From an uncultured Bdellovibrionales bacterium (GTDB lineage: Bacteria; Bdellovibrionota; Bdellovibrionia; Bdellovibrionales; UBA1609), in contig CAILEP010000018.1 in NCBI GenBank assembly GCA_903833275.1, positions 1 to 64,000 of the forward strand: DNA of 64,000 nucleotides, given 5' to 3'. Below, piece after piece: positions 981 through 17,113 of this stretch. Each line of letters starts with the position of its first letter. Position 1 is the stretch's first letter. The position numbers were made by a program, and so were the translations under genes. Below the pieces are notes generated by a model. It was not told where the DNA came from. It ran no database searches and worked only from the letters and a program-made list of their open reading frames with translations.

Positions 981-2399
981 ATGTATCGCAAGCATATCTA
1001 CCTTACAGTCAATGGTGAAATCATCGAGCTCGGCGGTAAAGAGGCGATCGCTCCGTTGAGTGATACTCTTCGCTATTATCTCGGCAAAACCGGTACGAAA
1101 GTGGTCTGCGCTGAAGGCGATTGCGGGGCTTGTACCGTGATGCTGGCGCGGGCTCGCGAAGGGGTTTACCGCTCGATCAATGCCTGCATTTACCCTACGT
1201 TTCTGGCCGATGGCTGTCACTTGGTCACTGTTGAGGGTCTGGCTAAGAACTCTGAGCTTCATGAAGTTCAACAGTCGATGATGCGAAATTTTGGTGGCCA
1301 GTGTGGCTTTTGTACTCCTGGGTTTGTCATGTCGTTGGTAAATCTTTATGAGCACAAGACGGCGCCCAAAGAACAAAATGTCAAAAATTACCTAACGGGC
1401 AATCTTTGCCGCTGCACGGGTTATCAGCCGATCGTACAAGCTGCACTTGATATAAATGCCAAGAAAATGAAATCGTTGGGCGAAATGTACCCGCTTAAGA
1501 AAGAAACCGAAACTCTCATTAGCAAAACGGCTCAGCCCATTTTGATTGAAATTGAAGAGCGAGAATTTTTCGCCCCGGTGACCTTACAACAGGCAGTCGA
1601 ATATAAAAATCGTCGACCGCATGCTCGAATTTTTTCAGGCGCGACAGATTTAGGGGTGCAAATAAACAAGGGCAAGTTCATAGGCGAGCAGCGCATGAGT
1701 TTGCATCTTCTTGAAGAGCTGAATGAAATCAAAGTTAACAACTCTGTTGTTGGCGTTGGCGCGCGAGTGACGTTAGAAAAGTTGCAGACCGTGATGGCGG
1801 CTCATGTGCCACAGTTTGCAGATTTCTTAAATATCTTTGCGTCGCCTCAAATTAAAAACTCGGCGACTCTGGTCGGCAATTTGGCCAATGGTTCACCGAT
1901 TGCCGATACCACGCCGTTCTTATTGGCTATGGACGCCCATGTGAGCTTGCTCGGGCCGAGTGGTCAGCGCGTGCTGCCGATTACACAATTTTTCAAAGGC
2001 TATAAGTCGCTTGATATGGCCGAGAATGAATTTATCACTCACATCTCTTGGCCTTTAGTTTTGGATAAGAAAACCAAAATCGGGCTTTACAAAGTTTCTC
2101 AGCGCCGCGATTTGGATATTTCATGCGTCAATGCCTGTTTTGTTTTTCGCATAAATTCAGGCGTGATTGAAGACGCACGAATTGCTTTGGGCGGAGTAGC
2201 GGCGGTGCCCCTTCGCTTAGGCGCGATTGAAAAAAGCCTATTGGGCCATGTGGTTTCAAAAGACTTAATCGCGAAAACCAATACACAGATCACCGATGCC
2301 ATTCAGCCTTTATCGGATGCTCGCGGTTCGGCTGACTTTAGAAAATCAGTAACCCAAGAACTCTTTCAGAAATTTGCCATGGAGCACCTTCAGCCATGA
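981..2399 (+). CDS. xdhA: Xanthine dehydrogenase small subunit (2Fe-2S and FAD)
   Basis: A 472-residue electron-transfer subunit of a molybdenum hydroxylase. Residues about 5-160 carry two [2Fe-2S] domains: the plant-type CxxxxCGAC set (CAEGDCGACTV) and the alpha-helical set (QCGFCTPG, then NLCRCTGYQPI). Residues about 190-360 are the FAD domain, with FSGATDLG and TLVGNLANGSPIADTTP near the isoalloxazine site. The remainder is the CO-dehydrogenase flavoprotein C-terminal domain. The two-subunit XdhA/XdhB layout matches bacterial xanthine dehydrogenases. The stop overlaps the xdhB start by 4 bases (ATGA), implying translational coupling. Confidence 0.93.
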   Translation: MYRKHIYLTVNGEIIELGGKEAIAPLSDTLRYYLGKTGTKVVCAEGDCGACTVMLARAREGVYRSINACIYPTFLADGCHLVTVEGLAKNSELHEVQQSMMRNFGGQCGFCTPGFVMSLVNLYEHKTAPKEQNVKNYLTGNLCRCTGYQPIVQAALDINAKKMKSLGEMYPLKKETETLISKTAQPILIEIEEREFFAPVTLQQAVEYKNRRPHARIFSGATDLGVQINKGKFIGEQRMSLHLLEELNEIKVNNSVVGVGARVTLEKLQTVMAAHVPQFADFLNIFASPQIKNSATLVGNLANGSPIADTTPFLLAMDAHVSLLGPSGQRVLPITQFFKGYKSLDMAENEFITHISWPLVLDKKTKIGLYKVSQRRDLDISCVNACFVFRINSGVIEDARIALGGVAAVPLRLGAIEKSLLGHVVSKDLIAKTNTQITDAIQPLSDARGSADFRKSVTQELFQKFAMEHLQP

Positions 2400-4744
2400 G
2401 CCAAATTCACGATTCGGCCCGCGGTTACGTAACGGGCTCGGCTGAGTACATCGACGATCGCCCCTTTGTAAGCGGCGAACTGCATGTCGAAGTGTTTTAT
2501 AGTTTGGTGGCCAAAGGTAAAATTAAAACTCTTGATGTCAGCGCTGCCGCCAAGGTGCCGGGTGTCGCCGCGATTTATACTTCAAAAGACTTGCGCCATA
2601 ACCTTTGGGGCTCGATTTTTGAAGATCAGCCTTATCTCGCCGAAAATGAAGTTCAGTATGTGGGCGAGCCAATCGCGGTGATTGCCGCTGAATCTAAAGC
2701 AACGGCTCATCTAGCTAAAACTAAAATTATAATTGAGTTCGAAAAATCAGAGGCTAAAGTCGCAACTCTCGATATTGATGTGGCGATTAAGAACAAAGAG
2801 TTTATTGGCCAAGAGCGTGCGATAATGCGTGGCGATGTCGACGCCGAACTTAAGAAAGCCAAGCATGTTTTGCGCGGCGAAATCTTTATGGCCGGGCAAG
2901 ACCATTTTTATCTCGAGTCTCAGGCCTGCGTGGTCTACCCCAAAGAAGATGATCAAATCGAAATTCATTCGTCATCGCAGCATCCGTCGGAGGTGCAGCA
3001 CTTAGTCGCCAAGGCTCTCGGGCTAAAATTTCATCAAGTTGTTTGCATTGTAAAAAGAATGGGTGGCGCCTTTGGTGGCAAAGAGTCTCAGGCCGCGCCG
3101 TTTGCGGTTTTTGCGGCGCTCGTCGCGCTCAAGCTTAAGAAGCCGGCGCGTTTAATTGTTTCTAAAGATGACGACATGATTATGACCGGCAAGCGAAACC
3201 CATTTAAGAATTTCTACGAAGTTGGGTTTAATGATGCCGGGCAAATCACGGCGCTGAAGGCGCGGCTCTTTTCTGACGGTGGGGCCTATGCCGATCTTTC
3301 GACAGCCATTATGGAGCGTGCGATGCTTCATCTCGACAACGCTTATTTTATCCCAAATTTTTCGGTAACGGGGCAGGTATGTAAAACGAATACTCCACCC
3401 AATACGGCGTTTCGTGGTTTCGGCGGCCCCAAAGGTGTCGTGACGATTGAAAGTATCATTGAAGATATCGCGCAATATTTGAAGGTAGACGCATTTAGCG
3501 TGCGAGAGAAGAATGTTTACCAAAAAGGGCAAACGACCCCATATGGCCAGACGATTGAAGATAATATTCTGCCAGAGCTTTTTCAGAAATTGAAAAAAGA
3601 AAGTAGATACGAAGAATGGCGAAGCGAAATTTCAGCGCATAATAAAGCTGGTGGTGCAACTCTGCGCGGGCTCTCGGCGACTGCGGTGAAATTTGGTATT
3701 TCGTTTACGACGCGATTTTTGAATCAAGCCAATGCTCTGGTCAATGTGCATCTCGACGGCACAATTCAGGTCTCAACTGGGGCCACAGAGATGGGCCAAG
3801 GCGTTAATACCAAGATTGCTCAAATTGTCGCTGAGTGTTTTTCAATTTCTGCGGGCGATGTTCGGGTTATGCCGACTTCAACAGAAAAAAACCCCAATAC
3901 GTCAGCGACGGCGGCGTCAAGCGGCAGTGATATTAATGGTCAGGCGGCACTTAACGCCAGCAACGCGATCAAAGAGAATCTGAATCGCGTCGCTCAGGCG
4001 GTTTTTGCCCGGCCTGTAGAAAATCGCGGGCGAAAAGTGGCTGGCACGGGCAATGTCGCCGAAATTGATATCAGTAAAATTGCTGTGGATGAGAACATTA
4101 TTTTTGAAAATGGTTTCGTAGCGAGTAAGAAGTCGCCAAAACTTAAAATATCGTTTCAAGATTTACTTCAAGAGGCTTACCTCAATCGCGTGCCACTAAC
4201 GGCACAGGGTCATTTTAAGTACCCGGGCATATTTTTCGACAAAGACGCGGGCCAAGGCACGCCATTTTTCTACTTCACAAATGGGGTCGCCGCGAGCGAA
4301 GTTTCGATCGATCGCTATACAGGCGAGCTCAAAGTTTTACGAACAGAACTCTATATGGATCTCGGTCGACCCATCAATGAAGCGATCGACCTCGGGCAGG
4401 TGACTGGCGGGTTCGTGCAGGGGATGGGTTGGGTCACCACAGAAAATCTGTTTTACAAAGAGGGCCGCTTGGTGACGTGCTCGCCGAGCACCTACAAAAT
4501 CCCAAGTGTTCATGACATACCGCGAGTTTTTAATTGCCATCTTATCGATAACGCACTCAATAAGAAAAATGTCAGGGGTAGCAAAGCCGTAGGTGAGCCG
4601 CCGCTGCTTTTAGGGATTTCTGTTTGGGCAGCGGCTAAAAATGCTTTGCAATATGGTACGGACAAACCTATTGCCTTAAATCTGCCGGCTACGCAGGAGC
4701 AGATTTTCACTAAATTAAAGGGTTCAGATGTTGCAGCTCGCTGA
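2396..4744 (+). CDS. xdhB: Xanthine dehydrogenase molybdenum-binding subunit
   Basis: A 782-residue subunit that binds the molybdopterin cofactor and oxidises hypoxanthine/xanthine to urate. Visible signatures are GQDHFYLESQ, GGAFGGKESQA, the substrate-channel motif AFRGFGGPKG, GATEMGQGVNTK and the catalytic glutamate in GSKAVGEPPLLLG near the C-terminus. Length is typical of XdhB. It overlaps xdhA by 4 bases and xdhC by 17 bases, so all three are expected from one transcript. The guaD, puuD and uraH context makes a purine substrate much more likely than an aldehyde. Confidence 0.93.
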   Translation: MSQIHDSARGYVTGSAEYIDDRPFVSGELHVEVFYSLVAKGKIKTLDVSAAAKVPGVAAIYTSKDLRHNLWGSIFEDQPYLAENEVQYVGEPIAVIAAESKATAHLAKTKIIIEFEKSEAKVATLDIDVAIKNKEFIGQERAIMRGDVDAELKKAKHVLRGEIFMAGQDHFYLESQACVVYPKEDDQIEIHSSSQHPSEVQHLVAKALGLKFHQVVCIVKRMGGAFGGKESQAAPFAVFAALVALKLKKPARLIVSKDDDMIMTGKRNPFKNFYEVGFNDAGQITALKARLFSDGGAYADLSTAIMERAMLHLDNAYFIPNFSVTGQVCKTNTPPNTAFRGFGGPKGVVTIESIIEDIAQYLKVDAFSVREKNVYQKGQTTPYGQTIEDNILPELFQKLKKESRYEEWRSEISAHNKAGGATLRGLSATAVKFGISFTTRFLNQANALVNVHLDGTIQVSTGATEMGQGVNTKIAQIVAECFSISAGDVRVMPTSTEKNPNTSATAASSGSDINGQAALNASNAIKENLNRVAQAVFARPVENRGRKVAGTGNVAEIDISKIAVDENIIFENGFVASKKSPKLKISFQDLLQEAYLNRVPLTAQGHFKYPGIFFDKDAGQGTPFFYFTNGVAASEVSIDRYTGELKVLRTELYMDLGRPINEAIDLGQVTGGFVQGMGWVTTENLFYKEGRLVTCSPSTYKIPSVHDIPRVFNCHLIDNALNKKNVRGSKAVGEPPLLLGISVWAAAKNALQYGTDKPIALNLPATQEQIFTKLKGSDVAAR

Positions 4745-5528
4745 GAAAATTCAAGAACTACAGAACTCGCGGCAGTCATTTGTACTGGTGACCTTAATGG
4801 GTCTTAGGGGCAGTGTTCCGCAAGTGGCAGGGGCAAAGATGCTGGTGACCACAAGCGGGCTCTATTGGGGCACTGTTGGTGGCGGTAAAATCGAAGCCCA
4901 TTCGATTCAATATGCGCAGAATTTGTTAAGCGGTCAGCAAGACCCTCACGCCCAGACTTGGAATTTGCAAAAAGACATCGGTATGTCTTGCGGCGGCGAG
5001 GTCACAATGTTTTTTGATATTAGTAAATCAGTAGGTTGGCATATTTCAGTTTTTGGCGCTGGCCATGTAGCGCAAGAGCTTTGTCGGGTCTTGGCGACCT
5101 GGTCTTGTCATGTTTCAGTTTTTGACCCTCGTGCGGAGTGGCTCGAGCGGCTGCCAAGTTCGGCAAATATTGATAAAAAATTATCAGCCCAGATGGGCAG
5201 CGAAGTAGCGAATTTGCCTTCTGGCAGTTACCTCTTAAGCCTGACACAGGGTCATGGCTTTGATGTCCCGGTGTTGAGTGCGGCGTTTAAGCGGTTCACT
5301 GATTTTTCTTTTATCGGGGTGATAGGTTCCGATGTTAAGGCTAAAAAAATTAAGGCTGAACTTCTCGCTCTTGGTGCCAACCCAGATTTGCTGCAGAAAT
5401 TGGTCTGCCCGCTTGGTTTGCCCATTGGCAATAATACTCCAAATGAAATTGCCATTAGTATTTGCGCGCAACTTTTAGCCGTCAGAGATCAAAGCAGTTT
5501 TCGCATCGAAAGAGGTTTATATGATTAG
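4728..5528 (+). CDS. xdhC: XdhC family molybdenum cofactor insertion/sulfuration factor
   Basis: A 266-residue XdhC/CoxI-type protein. XdhC proteins bind molybdopterin, protect it during sulfuration and insert it into XdhB. The N-terminal domain has RGSVPQVAGAKMLV and GTVGGGKIE. A Rossmann-like C-terminal domain begins around FGAGHVAQELCRVL and contains FDPRAEW. The ATG at 4728 is inside xdhB and the gene overlaps uraH by 8 bases at its end, in keeping with a tightly packed operon. Confidence 0.9.
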   Translation: MLQLAEKIQELQNSRQSFVLVTLMGLRGSVPQVAGAKMLVTTSGLYWGTVGGGKIEAHSIQYAQNLLSGQQDPHAQTWNLQKDIGMSCGGEVTMFFDISKSVGWHISVFGAGHVAQELCRVLATWSCHVSVFDPRAEWLERLPSSANIDKKLSAQMGSEVANLPSGSYLLSLTQGHGFDVPVLSAAFKRFTDFSFIGVIGSDVKAKKIKAELLALGANPDLLQKLVCPLGLPIGNNTPNEIAISICAQLLAVRDQSSFRIERGLYD

Positions 5529-5844
5529 CACGCACATCTTAGATTTGAATCTTGGCCAGCCGGCCAGCGGGGTTATGGTCGAGCTTGAAAAAAAAGCGGG
5601 CGATGATTGGCAAACGGTTAAAGAATCGGCGACCAATGCGGATGGCCGCATCCAGTTCGACATAGCGGCGGCGACGGGCGAATACCGCCTGACCTTTAAA
5701 ATTGAAGACTATTTTTTAAAAATGAAACTGGCGCCGTTTTTTACGGTGGCGCCCGTTACATTTAAAATCTCAGATACGAAACGAAAGTATCACATTCCGC
5801 TTTTACTCAATTCATTCGGCTACAGCACTTACCGAGGCAGTTAG
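5521..5844 (+). CDS. uraH: 5-hydroxyisourate hydrolase (transthyretin-related protein)
   Basis: A 107-residue transthyretin-like enzyme that hydrolyses 5-hydroxyisourate to OHCU. Family hallmarks are intact: the N-terminal HILDLNLGQPASGV, the internal TNADGRI turn and the exact C-terminal tetrapeptide YRGS that distinguishes HIUases from true transthyretins. No signal peptide is seen, so it is probably cytoplasmic. It lies between xdhC (8-base overlap) and the giant fusion gene (3-base gap), whose second domain catalyses the next step. Confidence 0.95.
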   Translation: MISTHILDLNLGQPASGVMVELEKKAGDDWQTVKESATNADGRIQFDIAAATGEYRLTFKIEDYFLKMKLAPFFTVAPVTFKISDTKRKYHIPLLLNSFGYSTYRGS

Positions 5845-5847
5845 TTT

Positions 5848-8800
5848 TTGAAAAAACCTGTGAACCCCTTTTTTGATATTCGCTACTACCACGATTTTAT
5901 TTCGCCAGCGCTTGCGACTCATTTATTAGAAGAGGCGACGCCGGTTTCAGGGGTCGAGGGGTTGGTTGAAGTGGGCCAAGGCGGTGGTTTAGAGTCCAAA
6001 GCCTCGCTGCAGTTTTTGTCAGAACTCTATGTCGCGATAAGAGACGATCTTAAAGCTGTATTGCTTCAAAGAGAAATTGATCGCAAGTTTCTTGATGAGC
6101 GAGTGAAGGCCTGCAGCCAGTTTAACGACGAATTGGGCCGAGATATTCTTGATTCGGATTATAAAACGGTGATTGGCCTTGAAGATTCAAAGGGTCGGGT
6201 TGTTATTGGGCCTCTCACAAAGGGTTATGCAAGTCGCGGGGGCAAGGCCATTGCCCCAGTGCCGAGTTTTTTGAAGGGCCCACATGTTACGCTTTTTGGC
6301 CCACCCGATAGTGCGAAAATGGCAGTTAATGCCATGAACGCCTACCATCGAAAAATAATTGGCGAACCCGCGATCGTAAGCGAGATTTTGAAAGACAGTA
6401 GCGTCGGCCCTATGTGGGGTGCGGACGACGAAGACTCGAAAACACCGCTTCGCGCTGATTTAGTCGATGCCGGGTTAAATCTTACGGCCTGTTTCGACAA
6501 GTCGATTGTCGTCAACGACGCTCAGAAAAAGTATGAACTTGCAAAAGATCACCTAGCGATGCCTATCAAGCGGTTTCCAGGCTTGGCGCTGCCCTGCACG
6601 TTTTTGTTTTTAGAAAAAAGCCCGATCCCGCTACATCTCTATGATTTCGCCCTCCATCTTTTTAAAAATTGGCACAACGAAACATCTTTAGTTTTTTACG
6701 TGCCAAAACTCGAGAACGAAGAAGAGGCACGCTATATACACAAAATGGTTTCAACTGCTGAGAAGATGATCAAGAATCTTCATCCAAAATATGTTTTGGG
6801 TTCAGTGCGGCTGATGATTGTATTAGAAAACCCGCGCGCCATTTTACGTACCCACGAAATAATCGATGCGCTTCACCCCTATTTCGTCGGCGCTTCTTTA
6901 GGATGGCACGATTATCTGGCTTCAACAGCGAGACTTTTTAAAGAAGATCATCATTATAGAATACCGGTGAAGGCCGACCCTGATATCGTCATAAAATATA
7001 TCAAGGCCTCGCATCTTCTCTTGGCTGATGTCGTCGGCTCGCGTGGGGGCATCAAGGTCGGTGGTATGTACGGCATTCTGCCTCTCGACGGCGATCTAAT
7101 GTCTTCGTCATTTCAGATGACGCTCAAAGGTTTTATCAAAGACGTTATTACTCAACTCAAGCGCGACCTGACTGGGTTTTGGGTCGCGCACCCTGACTTT
7201 GTACGCCTAGGGATTGCTCTCGTTGAGGCCTGGAAGTCGTATCAGGCCAAAAATAAAGATCCGTTGATTGAGCTTGTGCAATCGCTACTAGACAAAAAGC
7301 ATCACAAAGAAATTTTGAAGTGTATTTCGGCCAAAGACATTGAGGGCCTTGATTCAGCTGACCCAAATTATGTTCGTTCGCTGATCGTCGCCGACATTAA
7401 AGAATCTGATTTTATTGCAAATAATCACCCCGACGAAATTCGGTTTAATGTTTTTCAATCTCTGCAATATTTGACTGATTGGCTTTCTGGCAATGGCTGC
7501 GTGGCCCTGCCTTCGTCAATAAATGGTGTCGCGGTAAGGGTCATGGACGATTTAGCTACGGCTGAGCGTTCTCGGTGGGAAGTCTGGCACGAAATCTATC
7601 ACAAACGGTTCGCCCTCGACGATTTTTTGCGCATCGTGCACGAAGAAATGCTCTTTATTCGAAAAGATCTTTCGAATCAGAAGAAAATCGTACAAGTGAA
7701 GTGGAGTGAAAAAACTGAAAAATGGTACCCGGTGGCCATGCGGCTCATGCTGCAATTGATGACCGACCGTAAACCACCAGAGTTTGCCACAGAGCTTCTC
7801 TTGCCATTTACAGTTGAAAAAATTAGAGAGGCCCATGACCCCTGGCGGGCCGTCTGTGAGCTTGACCCCAATAAGTTTGTTTTGTCGGCTTACATAGAGA
7901 AATTCAATTACTACTTCGAGGCCTGCGGTTGCCAGAAATTTGCCTCAACAATGGCCCGGCTAGCCGCCCAAGACCTTAAGCTTGCAGAAAAATTGGTCTC
8001 TAGCTTTACGGTCAAGGAAATCAATGAGGCGGCGGCCTTTCATGGCAATATTGGCGAAGGCAAAAGCACTCTCGACCGACGTGCTCAAGCCGAGCAATCT
8101 CAGGTGCTTTCAGACGACGAAAGCGTGCGACAGAATTTGTTGCTGCTCGGCCAGAAGTATCAAGAAAAATTTGGGTTTAAATTTTTAATATCGGCAAAGG
8201 GCAAGTCATCAACCGAGCTGTTGGCGGCGCTTAAAAAACGCGCTGGCGGCAAACGCGATATTGAAATCAAAACCGCGGCACGAGCGCTAGCCGACATTGC
8301 TCTTTCTCGAATGCAACAACACCGCCTCGACAGTTTAGTCGAATCGATCGAGGCCCTGCGCGAGCGCCATAACATCAATTCGGTGAGTCTCGCCATCAAT
8401 TGTGGTCTTGGCGTTCAAAGTTTTGGGTTCGGTGAGGCAAGCGAATCGACTTGGTTTGAGCTTGCCTCACTCAGTAAACCGCTGGCCACGGCTTTCGCGA
8501 TCGATTACTTCGATCGTAAAGGCATTTCGCTCACGACATCGGTTAACGCTTTATTTGGGCAGACGAAATCGAAGTTTCGAATAGCAGCTGACACGGGTGT
8601 TGAAGGGGCTGATGACGTGCAGATTCTGCATCTACTGAATCACACCGCGCTCAATATGCATTACGTGACCGGCGTCAGTGCGCAGCTCGAAATGCCGTCG
8701 ATTCAGAATTGGCTCGGTGAAATTAGAATGCTCAATGAGCCAGGTAAGACCTTTAAATATTCGGGCGGGGGTTTTATTGTTCTCGAGCATTTGATCGAAT

Positions 8801-10509
8801 CGCTTGAGAAAAAATCAATTCAAGAGCTCACCAAGGCCTATTTTTCAAAACTTGGTTTGAGTGAAATTAGTTTTAAGCAAAAATCGAAAAAGAACATCGA
8901 ATATGCTCCAGGATATTTCGACGGCGGCGAAAAAGTCGTTGGCGGCAGAAATATGTTCCCAGCCTTTGCAGCAGGGGCGATGGGCACAGCTAAAGGTGTT
9001 GCTGATTTCTTAGAGTTGCTGACCAAGGCGCGCAGTGGGCTTCAGGGCTGTGCTGGGTTGACTCACGACGTAGGCGTTGAAATGTTACACGGCGTCTATC
9101 GCGGCGGTTATGATTTTATGGGCGCGGCGATGGGCCTCGGCGTTTTTATTGCTGAAGCGGGCCCAAATCGTGTGGCCATTCATCAAGGTGCAAACGAAGG
9201 TTTTCGCGCGCTTTTTGTGCATGTCGTGGCTGGGCCAGACAGCGGCAAGGGCCTCGTGATTTTATGCAATGCCGATAACCGAGGCGTATTATTTATTGCA
9301 GAAGCCGCTCAGGTAATTCTAAAGAATCTAGATATTCGCGGCATAGATTTTGATAAATTCAGTTCGGCCTTTCAGTATAAGAATATTGAACAAGAGCAAA
9401 TCGTTAATCTTGGCTATAAGAAACTCATTTTTGATGCCTTCGAGCGAACATTGCCAGAGGCGATCGTCGATAAGGGCCCTCTCGACCCGCTGGCGGAGTA
9501 CAATCTGGCCGTCGGCGCAGAAATTATTTCAGTTAACGACCAAAAATTCGCTCGAGCCGAAAATTTATTGAGTGATCATTTGCCAATTTTTGACCCAGAA
9601 CTTTTTGGCAGCCAAGGCAAAATCATGGATAGTTGGGAGTCCGCTCGCCACAACGAGAACGATTTTGATGTTTTGGTTTTTCGACTTACTAAGCCCGCAT
9701 TGATTAATTTTATTTCGCTATCGACGCAGTATCATGACGGCAACCACCCTGAATACGTGCGGGTGTTAGGTCGTGAAAATTGGTCTGACCCTTGGGTTGA
9801 GATTTTGCCAAAGACCAAATTGCAGGGCCATTCGCTTTTGCAGATTAAGCTCGAAGAATCGCTCGCCGAGTATTCGCAAATAAAGGTCGAAATGGCACCT
9901 GACGGCGGGTTGTCGCGAATTGGCCTTTACGAAGATCTGCCGGCGAAAATTAAGTCGCAATTTCGCGAAGAAACGGCAGCAAAATGTATTCGTTTTAAGG
10001 GCGAGATACCGAAGACTAAAAAGCCGCTTGTAATACCGTATTCTCCGAGCAAGGGTGAATTGGCGCAGAACTTTAAACGAGTGAAGGGCAAGTCGGTTGA
10101 TTTTGCTTCGCGAGCCTTCGGTGGCATTGTGGTAAGAGCCACCAACGAGCACTATGGGCCAGCCGCGCAGGTGATCTCACCCTACCCAGCGATCAACATG
10201 TTCGACGGTTTAGAGTCAGCCCGCAGTCGCGAAACCGGGCATTTCGAAGAAGTTATTTTAAAGCTGGGTAAAAAAATTGCGATTCGACGAATCGTTTTTG
10301 ATTTTCAGTTCTTTGTAAACAACAACCCGAAATTTGTGAGCGTCGAAGGGTTTGTGAATAATAAATGGCGTCAACTTGTGGCAAAGACAAACGTTAAGGC
10401 CTTTGCTGGCAATCAAAAGTCTTTTCAAATTACCAATCGGGCCAAGATTGATAAAATTCGCGTTTGCACCTACCCCGATGGCGGTGTCAATCGCATCAGG
10501 GTCTATTGA
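5848..10509 (+). CDS. Four-module purine catabolism protein: malate synthase-like / OHCU decarboxylase / serine hydrolase / allantoicase
   Basis: One uninterrupted 1553-residue chain starting at TTG 5848. Residues about 20-640 resemble malate synthase A: metal-ligand candidates E327 (VLEN) and D355 (GWHDY), the WVAHP motif, and catalytic-base candidate D568 in MDDLATAERSR. The glyoxylate-binding arginine motif (RPRGWHL in relatives) is rewritten around 237-249. Residues about 650-822 are OHCU decarboxylase: H732 in the HxxIG motif, AEQ at 748-750, then KFGFKFLISAKG. Residues about 825-1165 are a class C beta-lactamase fold with S874-L-S-K877, Y971-S-G and H1112-Q-G1114. Residues about 1215-1553 hold two allantoicase repeats (IMDSWESAR; MFDGLESAR; PDGGVNRIRV). 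Three modules are successive or nearby steps from OHCU to malate. The hydrolase module has no assigned role and sits where allantoinase would act. No signal peptide is seen. Its 3' end overlaps convergent puuD by 7 bases. Confidence 0.9.
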   Translation: MKKPVNPFFDIRYYHDFISPALATHLLEEATPVSGVEGLVEVGQGGGLESKASLQFLSELYVAIRDDLKAVLLQREIDRKFLDERVKACSQFNDELGRDILDSDYKTVIGLEDSKGRVVIGPLTKGYASRGGKAIAPVPSFLKGPHVTLFGPPDSAKMAVNAMNAYHRKIIGEPAIVSEILKDSSVGPMWGADDEDSKTPLRADLVDAGLNLTACFDKSIVVNDAQKKYELAKDHLAMPIKRFPGLALPCTFLFLEKSPIPLHLYDFALHLFKNWHNETSLVFYVPKLENEEEARYIHKMVSTAEKMIKNLHPKYVLGSVRLMIVLENPRAILRTHEIIDALHPYFVGASLGWHDYLASTARLFKEDHHYRIPVKADPDIVIKYIKASHLLLADVVGSRGGIKVGGMYGILPLDGDLMSSSFQMTLKGFIKDVITQLKRDLTGFWVAHPDFVRLGIALVEAWKSYQAKNKDPLIELVQSLLDKKHHKEILKCISAKDIEGLDSADPNYVRSLIVADIKESDFIANNHPDEIRFNVFQSLQYLTDWLSGNGCVALPSSINGVAVRVMDDLATAERSRWEVWHEIYHKRFALDDFLRIVHEEMLFIRKDLSNQKKIVQVKWSEKTEKWYPVAMRLMLQLMTDRKPPEFATELLLPFTVEKIREAHDPWRAVCELDPNKFVLSAYIEKFNYYFEACGCQKFASTMARLAAQDLKLAEKLVSSFTVKEINEAAAFHGNIGEGKSTLDRRAQAEQSQVLSDDESVRQNLLLLGQKYQEKFGFKFLISAKGKSSTELLAALKKRAGGKRDIEIKTAARALADIALSRMQQHRLDSLVESIEALRERHNINSVSLAINCGLGVQSFGFGEASESTWFELASLSKPLATAFAIDYFDRKGISLTTSVNALFGQTKSKFRIAADTGVEGADDVQILHLLNHTALNMHYVTGVSAQLEMPSIQNWLGEIRMLNEPGKTFKYSGGGFIVLEHLIESLEKKSIQELTKAYFSKLGLSEISFKQKSKKNIEYAPGYFDGGEKVVGGRNMFPAFAAGAMGTAKGVADFLELLTKARSGLQGCAGLTHDVGVEMLHGVYRGGYDFMGAAMGLGVFIAEAGPNRVAIHQGANEGFRALFVHVVAGPDSGKGLVILCNADNRGVLFIAEAAQVILKNLDIRGIDFDKFSSAFQYKNIEQEQIVNLGYKKLIFDAFERTLPEAIVDKGPLDPLAEYNLAVGAEIISVNDQKFARAENLLSDHLPIFDPELFGSQGKIMDSWESARHNENDFDVLVFRLTKPALINFISLSTQYHDGNHPEYVRVLGRENWSDPWVEILPKTKLQGHSLLQIKLEESLAEYSQIKVEMAPDGGLSRIGLYEDLPAKIKSQFREETAAKCIRFKGEIPKTKKPLVIPYSPSKGELAQNFKRVKGKSVDFASRAFGGIVVRATNEHYGPAAQVISPYPAINMFDGLESARSRETGHFEEVILKLGKKIAIRRIVFDFQFFVNNNPKFVSVEGFVNNKWRQLVAKTNVKAFAGNQKSFQITNRAKIDKIRVCTYPDGGVNRIRVY

Positions 10510-11666
10510 ATTAACCACTGATTAATTATAGCCCGCTCTTCGTCAGTCATAAGTGTTTTATTGCCGAGAGGCATGGTTCGGCCGACCACCACTTGAACAT
10601 GAATTTTGTCGGCGAGGGCGCGAACTTGAGCCTCATTTTCAAAAACAATCCCTTTGGGGGCCACTTTGAAAGTGTCGTCAGTCGGATTAGGGCTGTGGCA
10701 GGTCTGGCAACGGTTAGCAATGATGGCCTTTACCTGTTGAAAGCCAACCATTTCGGGTGCGGGCGGCAATTCGGGTGTTTGTGCCGTGATAAAAACCAAA
10801 AACGCGAAGCCAATGGCTGCCGGCAAAAGCACCCAGCGCTCGCGTGGTAATTTAGTGACCATCGCATGGCGTATTAGCGCGCCTGAAATAGCTAGGCAGA
10901 TAAGCATTACTAAGTTGTGCGAGTGATTGTAAATTGTCGGAAAGTGATTGCTCAACATGATGAACAGCACCGGAAAAATAAAATAAGTGTTATGCACCGA
11001 GCGCACTTTTGATTTCAGACTCACGCTATAGTCGGGTATTTGGCCAGCTTGGGCCTCTTTAAGCATCTTGCTTTGACCTGGTAGAATGCGAATCCAAACG
11101 TTTAGCAACATAAGCGTGCCGAAGATCACGCCCGTTTGCATGTAGGCCCCGCGCCCACTAAAAATACTAAAATTGAGAACAGTTAAGGCACTAAAAAATA
11201 TAACCGATAAGACGAGGCTTAAAGTTTTGGACCGAACCAAATTAGCATTCCAGATAAGATCATAGATTACCCACGCGGCCGCGATGATACCGAGACTTAG
11301 TGAGATGGCCTGCGTTTGCGTCCAGGCCCTGATCGACGAATCGACCAGAAGGGTTGCGCCGTTTAAATAATATAGAAAAATCAGAAGGCAAAAGCCGGTG
11401 AGCAGGGTGAGCGTGGCCTCCCATTTAAACCAGTGCAGTGTTTTCGGGATTTCACCCGGAAATATCTTTCGTTTTTCAACTTGATAATAGAACCCGCCGT
11501 GCACCATAAACACTTCACCCTCGACATTTTTGCGCGGGGTTTCTGGGGCAACAAACGAACTGTCGAGCCATATAAAATAGAACGAACTGCCAATCCAAGC
11601 AATGCCAGCGACGAGATGTGAAAAACGCAAAATGTATTCAAGCCAGAGATTTAAGCTCATCGACAT
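10503..11666 (-). CDS. puuD: Membrane urate oxidase with C-terminal cytochrome c (PuuD type)
   Basis: A 387-residue integral membrane protein with about eight hydrophobic helices in the N-terminal 290 residues (Urate_ox_N/DUF989 type; opening LRFSHLVAGIAWIGSSFYFIWLD). A soluble cytochrome c domain follows, with CQTCH (heme attachment) and a likely methionine ligand in RTMPLGN. PuuD oxidises urate to 5-hydroxyisourate and passes electrons to the respiratory chain, so no H2O2 is made, unlike soluble uricase. It supplies the substrate of UraH, encoded on the opposite strand. It is transcribed toward the fusion gene and overlaps its end by 7 bases. The ATG at 11666 is followed by another at 11660. 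Confidence 0.9.
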   Translation of the reverse strand: MSMSLNLWLEYILRFSHLVAGIAWIGSSFYFIWLDSSFVAPETPRKNVEGEVFMVHGGFYYQVEKRKIFPGEIPKTLHWFKWEATLTLLTGFCLLIFLYYLNGATLLVDSSIRAWTQTQAISLSLGIIAAAWVIYDLIWNANLVRSKTLSLVLSVIFFSALTVLNFSIFSGRGAYMQTGVIFGTLMLLNVWIRILPGQSKMLKEAQAGQIPDYSVSLKSKVRSVHNTYFIFPVLFIMLSNHFPTIYNHSHNLVMLICLAISGALIRHAMVTKLPRERWVLLPAAIGFAFLVFITAQTPELPPAPEMVGFQQVKAIIANRCQTCHSPNPTDDTFKVAPKGIVFENEAQVRALADKIHVQVVVGRTMPLGNKTLMTDEERAIINQWLIQ

Positions 11667-13507: not shown

Positions 13508-13671
13508 GTGCAGTCTCCTCAGTATATTGGGCTCTGAACAACTTAGTGCGAGCGGCTGTTGAAAGCAATCGTGGTCGTTGATTTTGAGCGCGACGCGCGA
13601 CATGATAACAGGGCGATAATGTCGGCCGCGCGAAATAGCCCGACACTAAACACCTTCAAGTGAGTCTCTGT

Positions 13672-14595
13672 ATGAAAAAGAAACCAGCGCACCATGCCCC
13701 CACTCATATTTCTCACCACACTCGAGCTTCGGTACCACGAATAATCCAAAGACAACGCACGAACACCATCGAGAAAATAGGACGCAATGAGGGCTCGTTG
13801 TTTGGCGACGCTTTTCATTCGCTTATGAATCGCGAGTGGTGGCAACTCATTGCGTTTATCTTCTCTGGTTTTTTATTTTCGAATCTTACATTTGCGGTGA
13901 TTTACTATTTGTTGCCCGACGGCATAGCGAACGTCAACGGCGGGTTTATCGATTATTTTTTCTTTAGCGTACAAACAATGGCCACCATCGGCTATGGCGT
14001 GATGGCGCCCAAAACGATGGCGGCAAATCTTGTCGCGTCGCTTGAAGCGTTTGTGGGCCTCATCGGTTTTGCTGTAGGTTCAGGGGTCATTTTCGGTCGT
14101 TTGGCGAAGCCAACGGCAAAGATAATGTTTAGCCAAGTCGCAGCGATCACGAAGAGAGACGGGCGCGATGTGATGATGTTGAGGCTTGCCAACGAGCGCG
14201 ACAACCAGATTCTTGAGGGCACGGTGACCATGACCTATCTTTCGACAAAGACCACCAAAGAGGGCGAGGTTATGCGTCGCTTTGAAGAGATGAAGCTCGA
14301 ACGAAATCATACGCCCATTTTCTCTTTGACCTGGACGATCATTCACCCGGTCGATCAACTCAGCCCGTTATTTGGTAAAACACCTGACGACCTAATTGAA
14401 GATCAAGCTGAAATACTCATTACCTTTCGCGGCGTCGATGAAACTTTCTCACAAGAGATTTTCGCACGAAATTCTTATATCGCTGAAGAGATTCGTTGGT
14501 CTCATAGGTTTGTCGATATTTTAGGTATCAATGATCAGGGTCGACGCACGATTGATTACAATAAATTTCACGACACTCAGCCGTGGGGTGTCTAA
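13672..14595 (+). CDS. KirBac-type inward rectifier potassium channel
   Basis: About 307 residues. An amphipathic slide helix precedes TM1 (WWQLIAFIFSGFLFSNLTF), then a pore helix and the K+ selectivity filter TIGYG, TM2 (AFVGLIGFAVGSGVIFGRLAKP) and a cytoplasmic immunoglobulin-like IRK domain of about 165 residues. This is the full prokaryotic Kir architecture. ATG 13672 is chosen; a GTG at 13660 would add four residues. Divergent from the dienelactone hydrolase gene. Gating ligands cannot be told from sequence. Confidence 0.92.
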   Translation: MKKKPAHHAPTHISHHTRASVPRIIQRQRTNTIEKIGRNEGSLFGDAFHSLMNREWWQLIAFIFSGFLFSNLTFAVIYYLLPDGIANVNGGFIDYFFFSVQTMATIGYGVMAPKTMAANLVASLEAFVGLIGFAVGSGVIFGRLAKPTAKIMFSQVAAITKRDGRDVMMLRLANERDNQILEGTVTMTYLSTKTTKEGEVMRRFEEMKLERNHTPIFSLTWTIIHPVDQLSPLFGKTPDDLIEDQAEILITFRGVDETFSQEIFARNSYIAEEIRWSHRFVDILGINDQGRRTIDYNKFHDTQPWGV

Positions 14596-15725: not shown

Positions 15726-15838
15726 TATGGCTCCCCCCATGGTCATTTGAAACTTCGTCATATCACTAATTAGCAGCTCGAAGCAACGCCTCTGATCTCG
15801 GCTTGCGTTGGCGTTACGTCGATGTCATTCTTAATTTG

Positions 15839-17113
15839 ATGTTTAAATCGCTTATACGCCATCTCTACTTTTGGGTTGTTGTCGCCATTGTAATTGGGGT
15901 GGCCATTGGTCATTTTGCTCCGGGTGCCGCCATTGAACTTAAACCGTTAGGTGACGGTTTCATCGCATTGGTAAAAATGCTGATTGGGCCGATCATATTC
16001 TGCACCGTGGCTCTCGGCATTGCGGGCGCGGGCGATATGAAAAAAGTCGGGCGTGTCGGCCTCAAAGCGATAGTCTATTTTGAAGTGCTTTCGACGATGG
16101 CGCTGATCATTGGTCTTGTTGTAATGAATATTTTGAGGCCGGGCCGCGGATTCAATATCAACTCCGCAGCCCTCGATACTTCAGTCGTTGCCGGCTTTCA
16201 AAAGACGGCAAATGAAATTGGTGGTTTCGGTGGGGGCGTTCGCGATTTAATTCTTCGTCTTATACCAAAAACATTTTTCGATGCCTTCAGTGGCTCTGGC
16301 GATTTACTACAAATTCTTTTGCTGGCGATTCTTTTCGGCTTTGGGCTTTCGCAATTGCGCGAACGAGGGGCGGCTGTTCGCCATTTTCTCGATTCAACTC
16401 TTGAGATTTTTTTTACAATTCTAAAAACCATAATGTACTTGGCGCCTCTTGGGGCCGGTGGAGCCATGGCATTTACAGTCGGCAAATTTGGTCTTCGAGC
16501 CCTAATGCCGCTGGCCGCCCTCATGGGTTGCTTCTATCTCACCTGTGGTATTTTTATTCTTGTTGTTTTAGGCACCGTTGCTCGCGCCTCAGGCTTTAGC
16601 ATTCTTCGATTTCTTTATTTTATTCGTCACGAACTCATTTTGGTTCTCGGCACTTCATCGTCCGAAAGTGCTCTAGCGCAATTGATGAAAAAACTAGAAA
16701 CTCTCGGCTGCCCGCGCTCGGTGGTTGGGCTGGTCGTTCCAGCAGGCTATTCGTTTAATCTCGACGGCACCAATATTTATCTGACTATGGCGGCCCTGTT
16801 TATTGCTCAAGCGATGAACATCGACTTGTCTCTCACTCAACAGCTGACCATTCTAGGGGTTGCGATGTTGACATCAAAAGGCGCGTCGGGGGTCACGGGT
16901 GCCGGTTTTGTGACTCTGGCCGCGACTCTGGCCGTCGTGCCTGAAGTGCCAGTTGCGGGCCTCGCTCTGATTCTCGGGGTCGATCGCTTTATGTCAGAGG
17001 CGCGCGCGTTGACGAACTTTGTGGGTAACGGGGTTGCGACTCTGGCAATCTCTCGGTGGGAGGGCGAATTGAGCCCAGCTCTCGATATCGAAAGTCAGAA
17101 AGTTTGGCGTTAG
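15839..17113 (+). CDS. Dicarboxylate/amino acid:cation symporter (DAACS/EAAT family)
   Basis: About 424 residues of a multi-pass transporter. Family signatures include the serine-rich hairpin [30 protein letters not shown] in TM7 and [19 protein letters not shown] in the second hairpin. Such proteins import C4-dicarboxylates, glutamate or aspartate with Na+ or H+. ATG 15839 ([12 protein letters not shown]) is preferred because the frame upstream to 15803 is not hydrophobic. Its last 125 bases overlap the convergent glycosyltransferase gene. Uptake of malate or aspartate would fit a scavenger; the exact substrate is not resolved. Confidence 0.88.

Follow-up and report, generated by a model that had tools for sequence, protein, structure and literature searches.

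The allantoinase step of purine breakdown is known to be replaceable by an unrelated fold, as the NodB-like enzyme PuuE illustrates, and allantoicase may have a side activity on ureidoglycolate. Urea elimination from ureidoglycolate by AllA is a metal-dependent reaction (PMC3793230), and spontaneous decay of ureidoglycolate has also been described (PMC6320678). As for glyoxylate, malate synthase has been proposed as the sink for purine-derived glyoxylate in Nephromyces (PMC6320678), and work on Pseudomonas deemed the same enzyme unsuitable for allantoin-derived glyoxylate (PMC12694930). The canonical ureide operon of the phylum Bdellovibrionota usually runs in the order PuuD-AllB-allantoicase-OHCU decarboxylase-HIUase-DUF6986.

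Here we analyse a protein that joins malate synthase, OHCU decarboxylase, serine hydrolase and allantoicase modules in one chain, encoded in a 64,000-nt window (the whole stretch of DNA under study, from contig CAILEP010000018.1, to whose positions the coordinates refer). A preliminary description had called this combination not known to be described, and the claim holds within the open-licence literature that we searched, where we found no description of either the four-module fusion or a serine-type allantoinase. The evidence is strong that the fusion is a real and conserved four-module protein, undescribed within that literature, and it makes a serine-type allantoinase a strong, testable prediction.

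Four modules in one conserved frame

The fusion occupies positions 5848-10509 of the plus strand, in an open reading frame that starts with TTG and runs for 1553 codons with zero internal stops, and a profile search of the 1553-aa protein places all four modules above the Pfam curated cut-offs. The four-module frame and its coordinates, as first reported, are exact, and the per-module motifs do follow in the order given, with catalytic positions located in the malate synthase, OHCU decarboxylase and serine hydrolase modules.

The malate synthase A-like module (5848-7827, plus strand; residues about 1-660) comprises a TIM barrel (MS_TIM-barrel, residues 245-456, 65.5 bits) and a C-terminal domain (MS_C, residues 529-648, 40.3 bits); a sequence search of the PDB pairs it with the malate synthase A of E. 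coli (3cuz), and its predicted structure agrees with that enzyme at a TM of 0.83 by target. The OHCU decarboxylase module (7828-8322, plus strand; residues about 661-825) matches OHCU_decarbox (PF09349) at residues 712-823 (71 bits, over the Pfam cut-off and below the NCBIfam equivalog cut-offs), and its PDB matches are the OHCU decarboxylases 5uou and 3o7h. The serine hydrolase module (8323-9447, plus strand; residues 826-1200), of class C beta-lactamase fold and here proposed to be a serine-type allantoinase, matches Beta-lactamase (PF00144) at residues 834-1151 (74.5 bits, over the Pfam cut-off); its PDB sequence matches are weak only, and its predicted structure (pLDDT 92.7) reaches a TM of about 0.7 to class C beta-lactamases, DD-peptidases and esterases. 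Finally, the allantoicase module (9460-10506, plus strand) consists of two repeats (residues 1223-1361, the best repeat, and about 1425-1553; PF03561, 173.1 bits), matches yeast allantoicase (1o59) and scores below the TIGR02961 equivalog cut-off (188.6 vs. 277.9).

The active-site positions of these modules are conserved. The malate synthase module keeps R242, E327, D355 and D567/D568, which we take to be the catalytic Arg, the Mg-binding Glu and Asp, and the catalytic Asp, and which are invariant across the aligned homologues; having the domains and the catalytic positions of its family, it is predicted to condense glyoxylate with acetyl-CoA. Catalytic-position H732 and E749 of the OHCU decarboxylase module are likewise invariant in aligned homologues. 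The serine hydrolase module is a member of PF00144 by its fold and by the SxxK, YxN/YxG and H/KxG motifs of that family, which here read S874-x-x-K877, Y971-S-G and H1112-Q-G-A-N, and S874, K877, Y971 and HQGAN are kept in 64/64 fused homologues examined.

The fusion is a widespread conserved protein and not a one-off. A homology scan of the sequence collection returned 40 loci, and 32 proteins (that of the window included) align over essentially their full length; the full-length homologues in 31 further loci measure 1500-1640 aa and are 51-60% identical overall to the window protein, the malate synthase and decarboxylase part being the best conserved (56-65% identity). The serine hydrolase-allantoicase pair, as fusion or as split relative, is present in 71/369 Bdellovibrionota genomes, and nearly all of these pairs sit in open frames of about 1500-1650 codons, contig permitting. 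That the fusion could be an artefact of assembly or gene calling has nothing in its favour beyond the draft assembly, and against it stand dozens of independent genomes, some of them assembled into one or a few contigs (e.g. G187), in which both the architecture and the length recur. The artefact reading is refuted by these independent assemblies, its probability being next to nil; because full-length homologues exist elsewhere, the frame is neither a frameshift nor a chimera, in agreement with the earlier remark that it contains no stop or frameshift. As a separate observation, one homologous locus (L031, 7989-12597) has the fusion split into two frames within the OHCU decarboxylase module, by a frameshift or an assembly error.

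The fusion is rare in Planctomycetota, with 2 strong matches in 392 genomes besides the loci from the collection scan, and a search there for close relatives of the serine hydrolase outside a fusion gave only generic matches of 57-77 bits. In a tree of the malate synthase module the Planctomycetota group is nested in a mostly Bdellovibrionota tree, which suggests a transfer involving Planctomycetota; the tree has long branches and weak deep support, and its root and the placement of genus g114 are unsure.

Immediately around the fusion the window carries the enzymes that lead to it, and its proposed linkage to a urate operon is supported by XdhABC, HIUase and PuuD. A cytidine/guanine-deaminase-family protein, possibly a guanine deaminase (PF00383; 430-915, minus strand), marks the upstream edge of the operon, and a similar deaminase-like neighbour flanks the fusion in Planctomycetota loci. 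On the plus strand follow the small (FeS/FAD) subunit of xanthine dehydrogenase, XdhA (981-2399, profile match), the large (molybdopterin) subunit, XdhB (2396-4744, over the TIGR02965 cut-off), the accessory protein XdhC (4728-5528, over the TIGR02964 cut-off) and, directly upstream of the fusion, 5-hydroxyisourate hydrolase (HIUase; 5521-5844, profile match), while a PuuD-type membrane urate oxidase with a cytochrome c tail (10503-11666, minus strand, profile match) is convergent with it. HIUase is present in 38/41 fusion neighbourhoods and PuuD in 25/41. Since the window has separate genes for the conversion of xanthine to urate, 5-hydroxyisourate and OHCU, the fusion takes over from OHCU.

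Several features of these neighbours can be recorded in their own right. The TAG of HIUase (5842-5844) and the TTG of the fusion (5848) are in the same frame with one codon between them, so that readthrough of the TAG would give a five-enzyme chain; HIUase and the fusion are in different frames at other loci (e.g. L013 and L031), and their adjacency is therefore probably a matter of translational coupling only. The PuuD proteins of many fusion loci (L004, 5988-7664; L022, 6012-7667) are about 550 aa long and end in a carboxypeptidase-regulatory-like domain that the 387-aa PuuD of the window lacks. Near the purine operon the window also encodes an inward-rectifier-type potassium channel (13660-14595) and a sodium:dicarboxylate symporter (15803-17113), which could carry C4 acids.

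The serine hydrolase module and the allantoinase step

Two conversions between OHCU and malate, allantoin to allantoate and ureidoglycolate to glyoxylate, have no evident enzyme, and the preliminary description gave the serine hydrolase no role. To place this module within the route, we compared the 88 genomes with allantoicase among 329 Bdellovibrionota genomes sampled. Each of the 88 belongs to one of two kinds, having its allantoicase in the fusion (or the split relative) or as a separate protein. AllB (TIGR03178) was found in 24/24 genomes with a stand-alone allantoicase (22 over the cut-off, and 2 partial at contig ends) and in 0/68 fusion genomes of the phylum, a mutual exclusion (Fisher p=3e-19, for genomes that share ancestry and are not independent) that could partly stem from this shared ancestry. 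Two genera each hold one genome of either kind (g146, with G347 fused and G348 carrying AllB; g158, with G363 fused and G362 carrying AllB), and the swap therefore occurred at least within those genera. In a set of 25 fusion genomes AllB was never over the cut-off and PuuE was absent from 25/25, on which ground PuuE was rejected as the replacement allantoinase. All absences rest on draft genomes, in which completeness limits single absences but not the overall pattern.

We also rejected the idea that an allantoinase-like amidohydrolase persists in fusion genomes: the only strong amidohydrolase match in the window's genome is a dihydroorotase, and those classified in fusion genomes proved to be dihydroorotases, apart from a D-hydantoinase in G038. 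It should be noted that D-hydantoinase-like amidohydrolases such as that of G038, present in some fusion genomes, might act on allantoin.

Because AllB is missing wherever the fusion occurs and present wherever allantoicase stands alone, we assign the serine hydrolase to this step; the exclusion pattern indicates that it is most likely a non-orthologous, serine-type allantoinase filling the place of AllB. The module lacks what defines a canonical AllB (TIGR03178, metal amidohydrolase fold) and, as a PF00144 protein, is at most an analogue; a serine amidase with a beta-lactamase-type fold could plausibly open a hydantoin ring.

Genus g114 is the exception. Its chain is split into a malate synthase that lacks the decarboxylase and a serine hydrolase-allantoicase pair encoded by a gene of its own (L036, L139, L136, L141), and this split-form genus has AllB, here fused to an OHCU decarboxylase; AllA adjoins the split serine hydrolase gene in one of its genomes (G205, L136). 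Its serine hydrolases have Phe in place of Tyr971 and HHAAN in place of HQGAN in the sequences covering these positions, that of G203 ending at a contig end before the Tyr. Since the motif is altered exactly in the genus with the canonical enzymes, the exception fits the allantoinase reading; the g114 genomes are drafts, 68-85% complete, with AllB seen in one and AllA in another, and the genus may keep the domain, despite its changed motif, for another role. The AllB-OHCU decarboxylase protein of g114 (L135, 7877-9730, 617 aa) is encoded beside HIUase, and next to one split serine hydrolase-allantoicase gene we observed a class V aminotransferase, of alanine-glyoxylate type by the look of its sequence (L139, 7126-8247), and a 179-aa single-repeat allantoicase (L139, 8387-8926).

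Two other readings of the serine hydrolase have to be weighed against these data. One of them, which we consider unlikely, would have the module cleave ureidoglycolate in place of AllA and so feed malate synthase, with another enzyme opening allantoin. AllA (PF04115) was found in 0/25 fusion genomes tested and in 0/68 fusion genomes of the phylum, the module shares its chain with the enzymes that flank this step in the route, and in G205, where the split serine hydrolase is altered, AllA lies beside it. However, AllA is also absent from 21/24 AllB genomes and present in only 3/24, so its absence is ordinary in the phylum and not specific to the fusion, and the module was demoted as an AllA replacement on this account; as the absence of AllB tracks the fusion and the absence of AllA does not, the missing function that goes with the fusion is that of the allantoinase. 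Serine hydrolases of this fold, moreover, attack amides or esters, and urea elimination is a different reaction.

The other reading, about as unlikely in our judgement, would make the serine hydrolase irrelevant to the route, with a structural or regulatory role or with peptide or cell-wall substrates, and would have AllB replaced elsewhere, for example by a hydantoinase. The functional diversity of the beta-lactamase superfamily is very great, the nearest folds are those of beta-lactamases, DD-peptidases and esterases, and some fusion genomes do have D-hydantoinase-like proteins. Yet hydantoinase-type proteins are not universal in fusion genomes (the sole strong match of the window's genome being its dihydroorotase), the triad is invariant in all 64 fused proteins and altered only in the AllB-bearing genus, and the module is embedded among purine enzymes with no signal peptide before it.

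From ureidoglycolate to malate

The preliminary description had placed the route from OHCU to malate on a single chain. What stands of this claim is that four modules of one catabolic route are joined, with a glyoxylate-consuming enzyme for its end; what does not stand is completeness, since no enzyme could be assigned to the conversion of ureidoglycolate to glyoxylate and urea, whether on the chain itself or among the genomes tested, and the chain is therefore not proven to be a complete route. Spontaneous decay, or a side activity of the allantoicase, could suffice for this cleavage.

The malate synthase module is most likely a sink for purine-derived glyoxylate. The window's genome has no isocitrate lyase, and a similarity search found no second malate synthase A in it; full-length isocitrate lyase matches occur in only 6/25 fusion genomes. 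Because isocitrate lyase is missing from the window's genome and from most of the others, the module is mostly not for the glyoxylate shunt, and a part in the shunt was rejected. A search of 11 genomes detected no urease alpha, which makes excretion of the urea probable.

The canonical operons offer a counterpart. In 21/24 AllB genomes, the AllB-allantoicase-OHCU decarboxylase operon, which in most of them also includes PuuD and HIUase, closes with DUF6986 (PF22484), a protein that weakly resembles the barrel of malate synthase; it is the last gene at L142 (11716-13059), L143 (4679-6025) and L144-L161. AllB and DUF6986 were found in 0/41 fusion neighbourhoods, and the two kinds of operon therefore correspond gene by gene, serine hydrolase to AllB and malate synthase to DUF6986. 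We predict that DUF6986 is likely a glyoxylate or ureidoglycolate enzyme, complementary to the malate synthase of the fusion. No DUF6986 was found in the cluster regions of the three AllA genomes, one region being cut by the contig and the cluster genes of another partly recovered, and no paper on DUF6986 was found in the open-licence literature searched.

We think it likely that the fusion acts in the cytoplasm as a multifunctional purine-catabolic enzyme that takes OHCU towards malate, its serine hydrolase module serving as the allantoinase. XdhABC would form urate, PuuD would oxidise urate to 5-hydroxyisourate, and HIUase would yield OHCU, which the decarboxylase module would convert to allantoin. 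Acting in place of AllB, the serine hydrolase would then form an acyl-enzyme at Ser874 to open the hydantoin ring, and the allantoicase module would release urea and ureidoglycolate, the latter losing its second urea spontaneously, through the allantoicase side activity or through another enzyme, before the malate synthase module would condense glyoxylate with acetyl-CoA to malate. The channelling of intermediates and the entry of prey purines that the preliminary description put forward are hypothetical; prey may supply the purines, to judge from phylum membership. As to its origin, we lean towards a third, serine-type class of allantoinase, of beta-lactamase fold, evolved or maintained within a four-enzyme OHCU-to-malate protein in which malate synthase (DUF6986 in related operons) would draw the decay of ureidoglycolate forward.

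Comparison with known systems

If this is true, the recruitment of a beta-lactamase fold as an allantoinase would be the third independent solution for one step of purine breakdown, and one chain would link purine carbon to the TCA cycle. DUF6986 would gain a testable role, as the enzyme for glyoxylate (or ureidoglycolate) of the purine pathway, provided that the prediction holds. With no urease in the 11 genomes tested, carbon would be retained by such a route while nitrogen would leave as urea, a fitting economy for bacteria whose prey is rich in nitrogen.

Like the canonical ureide operon of the phylum, the fusion operon follows the route from urate and has the functions of PuuD, HIUase, OHCU decarboxylase and allantoicase; unlike it, with its separate genes, metal-dependent AllB and DUF6986, the fusion has a serine hydrolase and a malate synthase. 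The reaction proposed for the serine hydrolase, allantoin to allantoate, is that of AllB/DAL1 (cyclic amidohydrolase) and of PuuE, whereas its beta-lactamase fold is unrelated to both in sequence and structure. The N-terminal module has the fold and the catalytic positions of malate synthase A (AceB, 3cuz), but it is only about 22-25% identical to AceB, extended at its N-terminus and attached to ureide enzymes, and isocitrate lyase is usually absent. A use of malate synthase for purine glyoxylate is also predicted in Nephromyces, where no AllA or UAH orthologue was found (PMC6320678); unlike the fusion, the enzymes there are separate, eukaryotic and partly peroxisomal. Lastly, the AllB-OHCU decarboxylase protein of g114 likewise fuses neighbouring ureide steps but, unlike the four-module chain, uses a canonical AllB and has only two modules.
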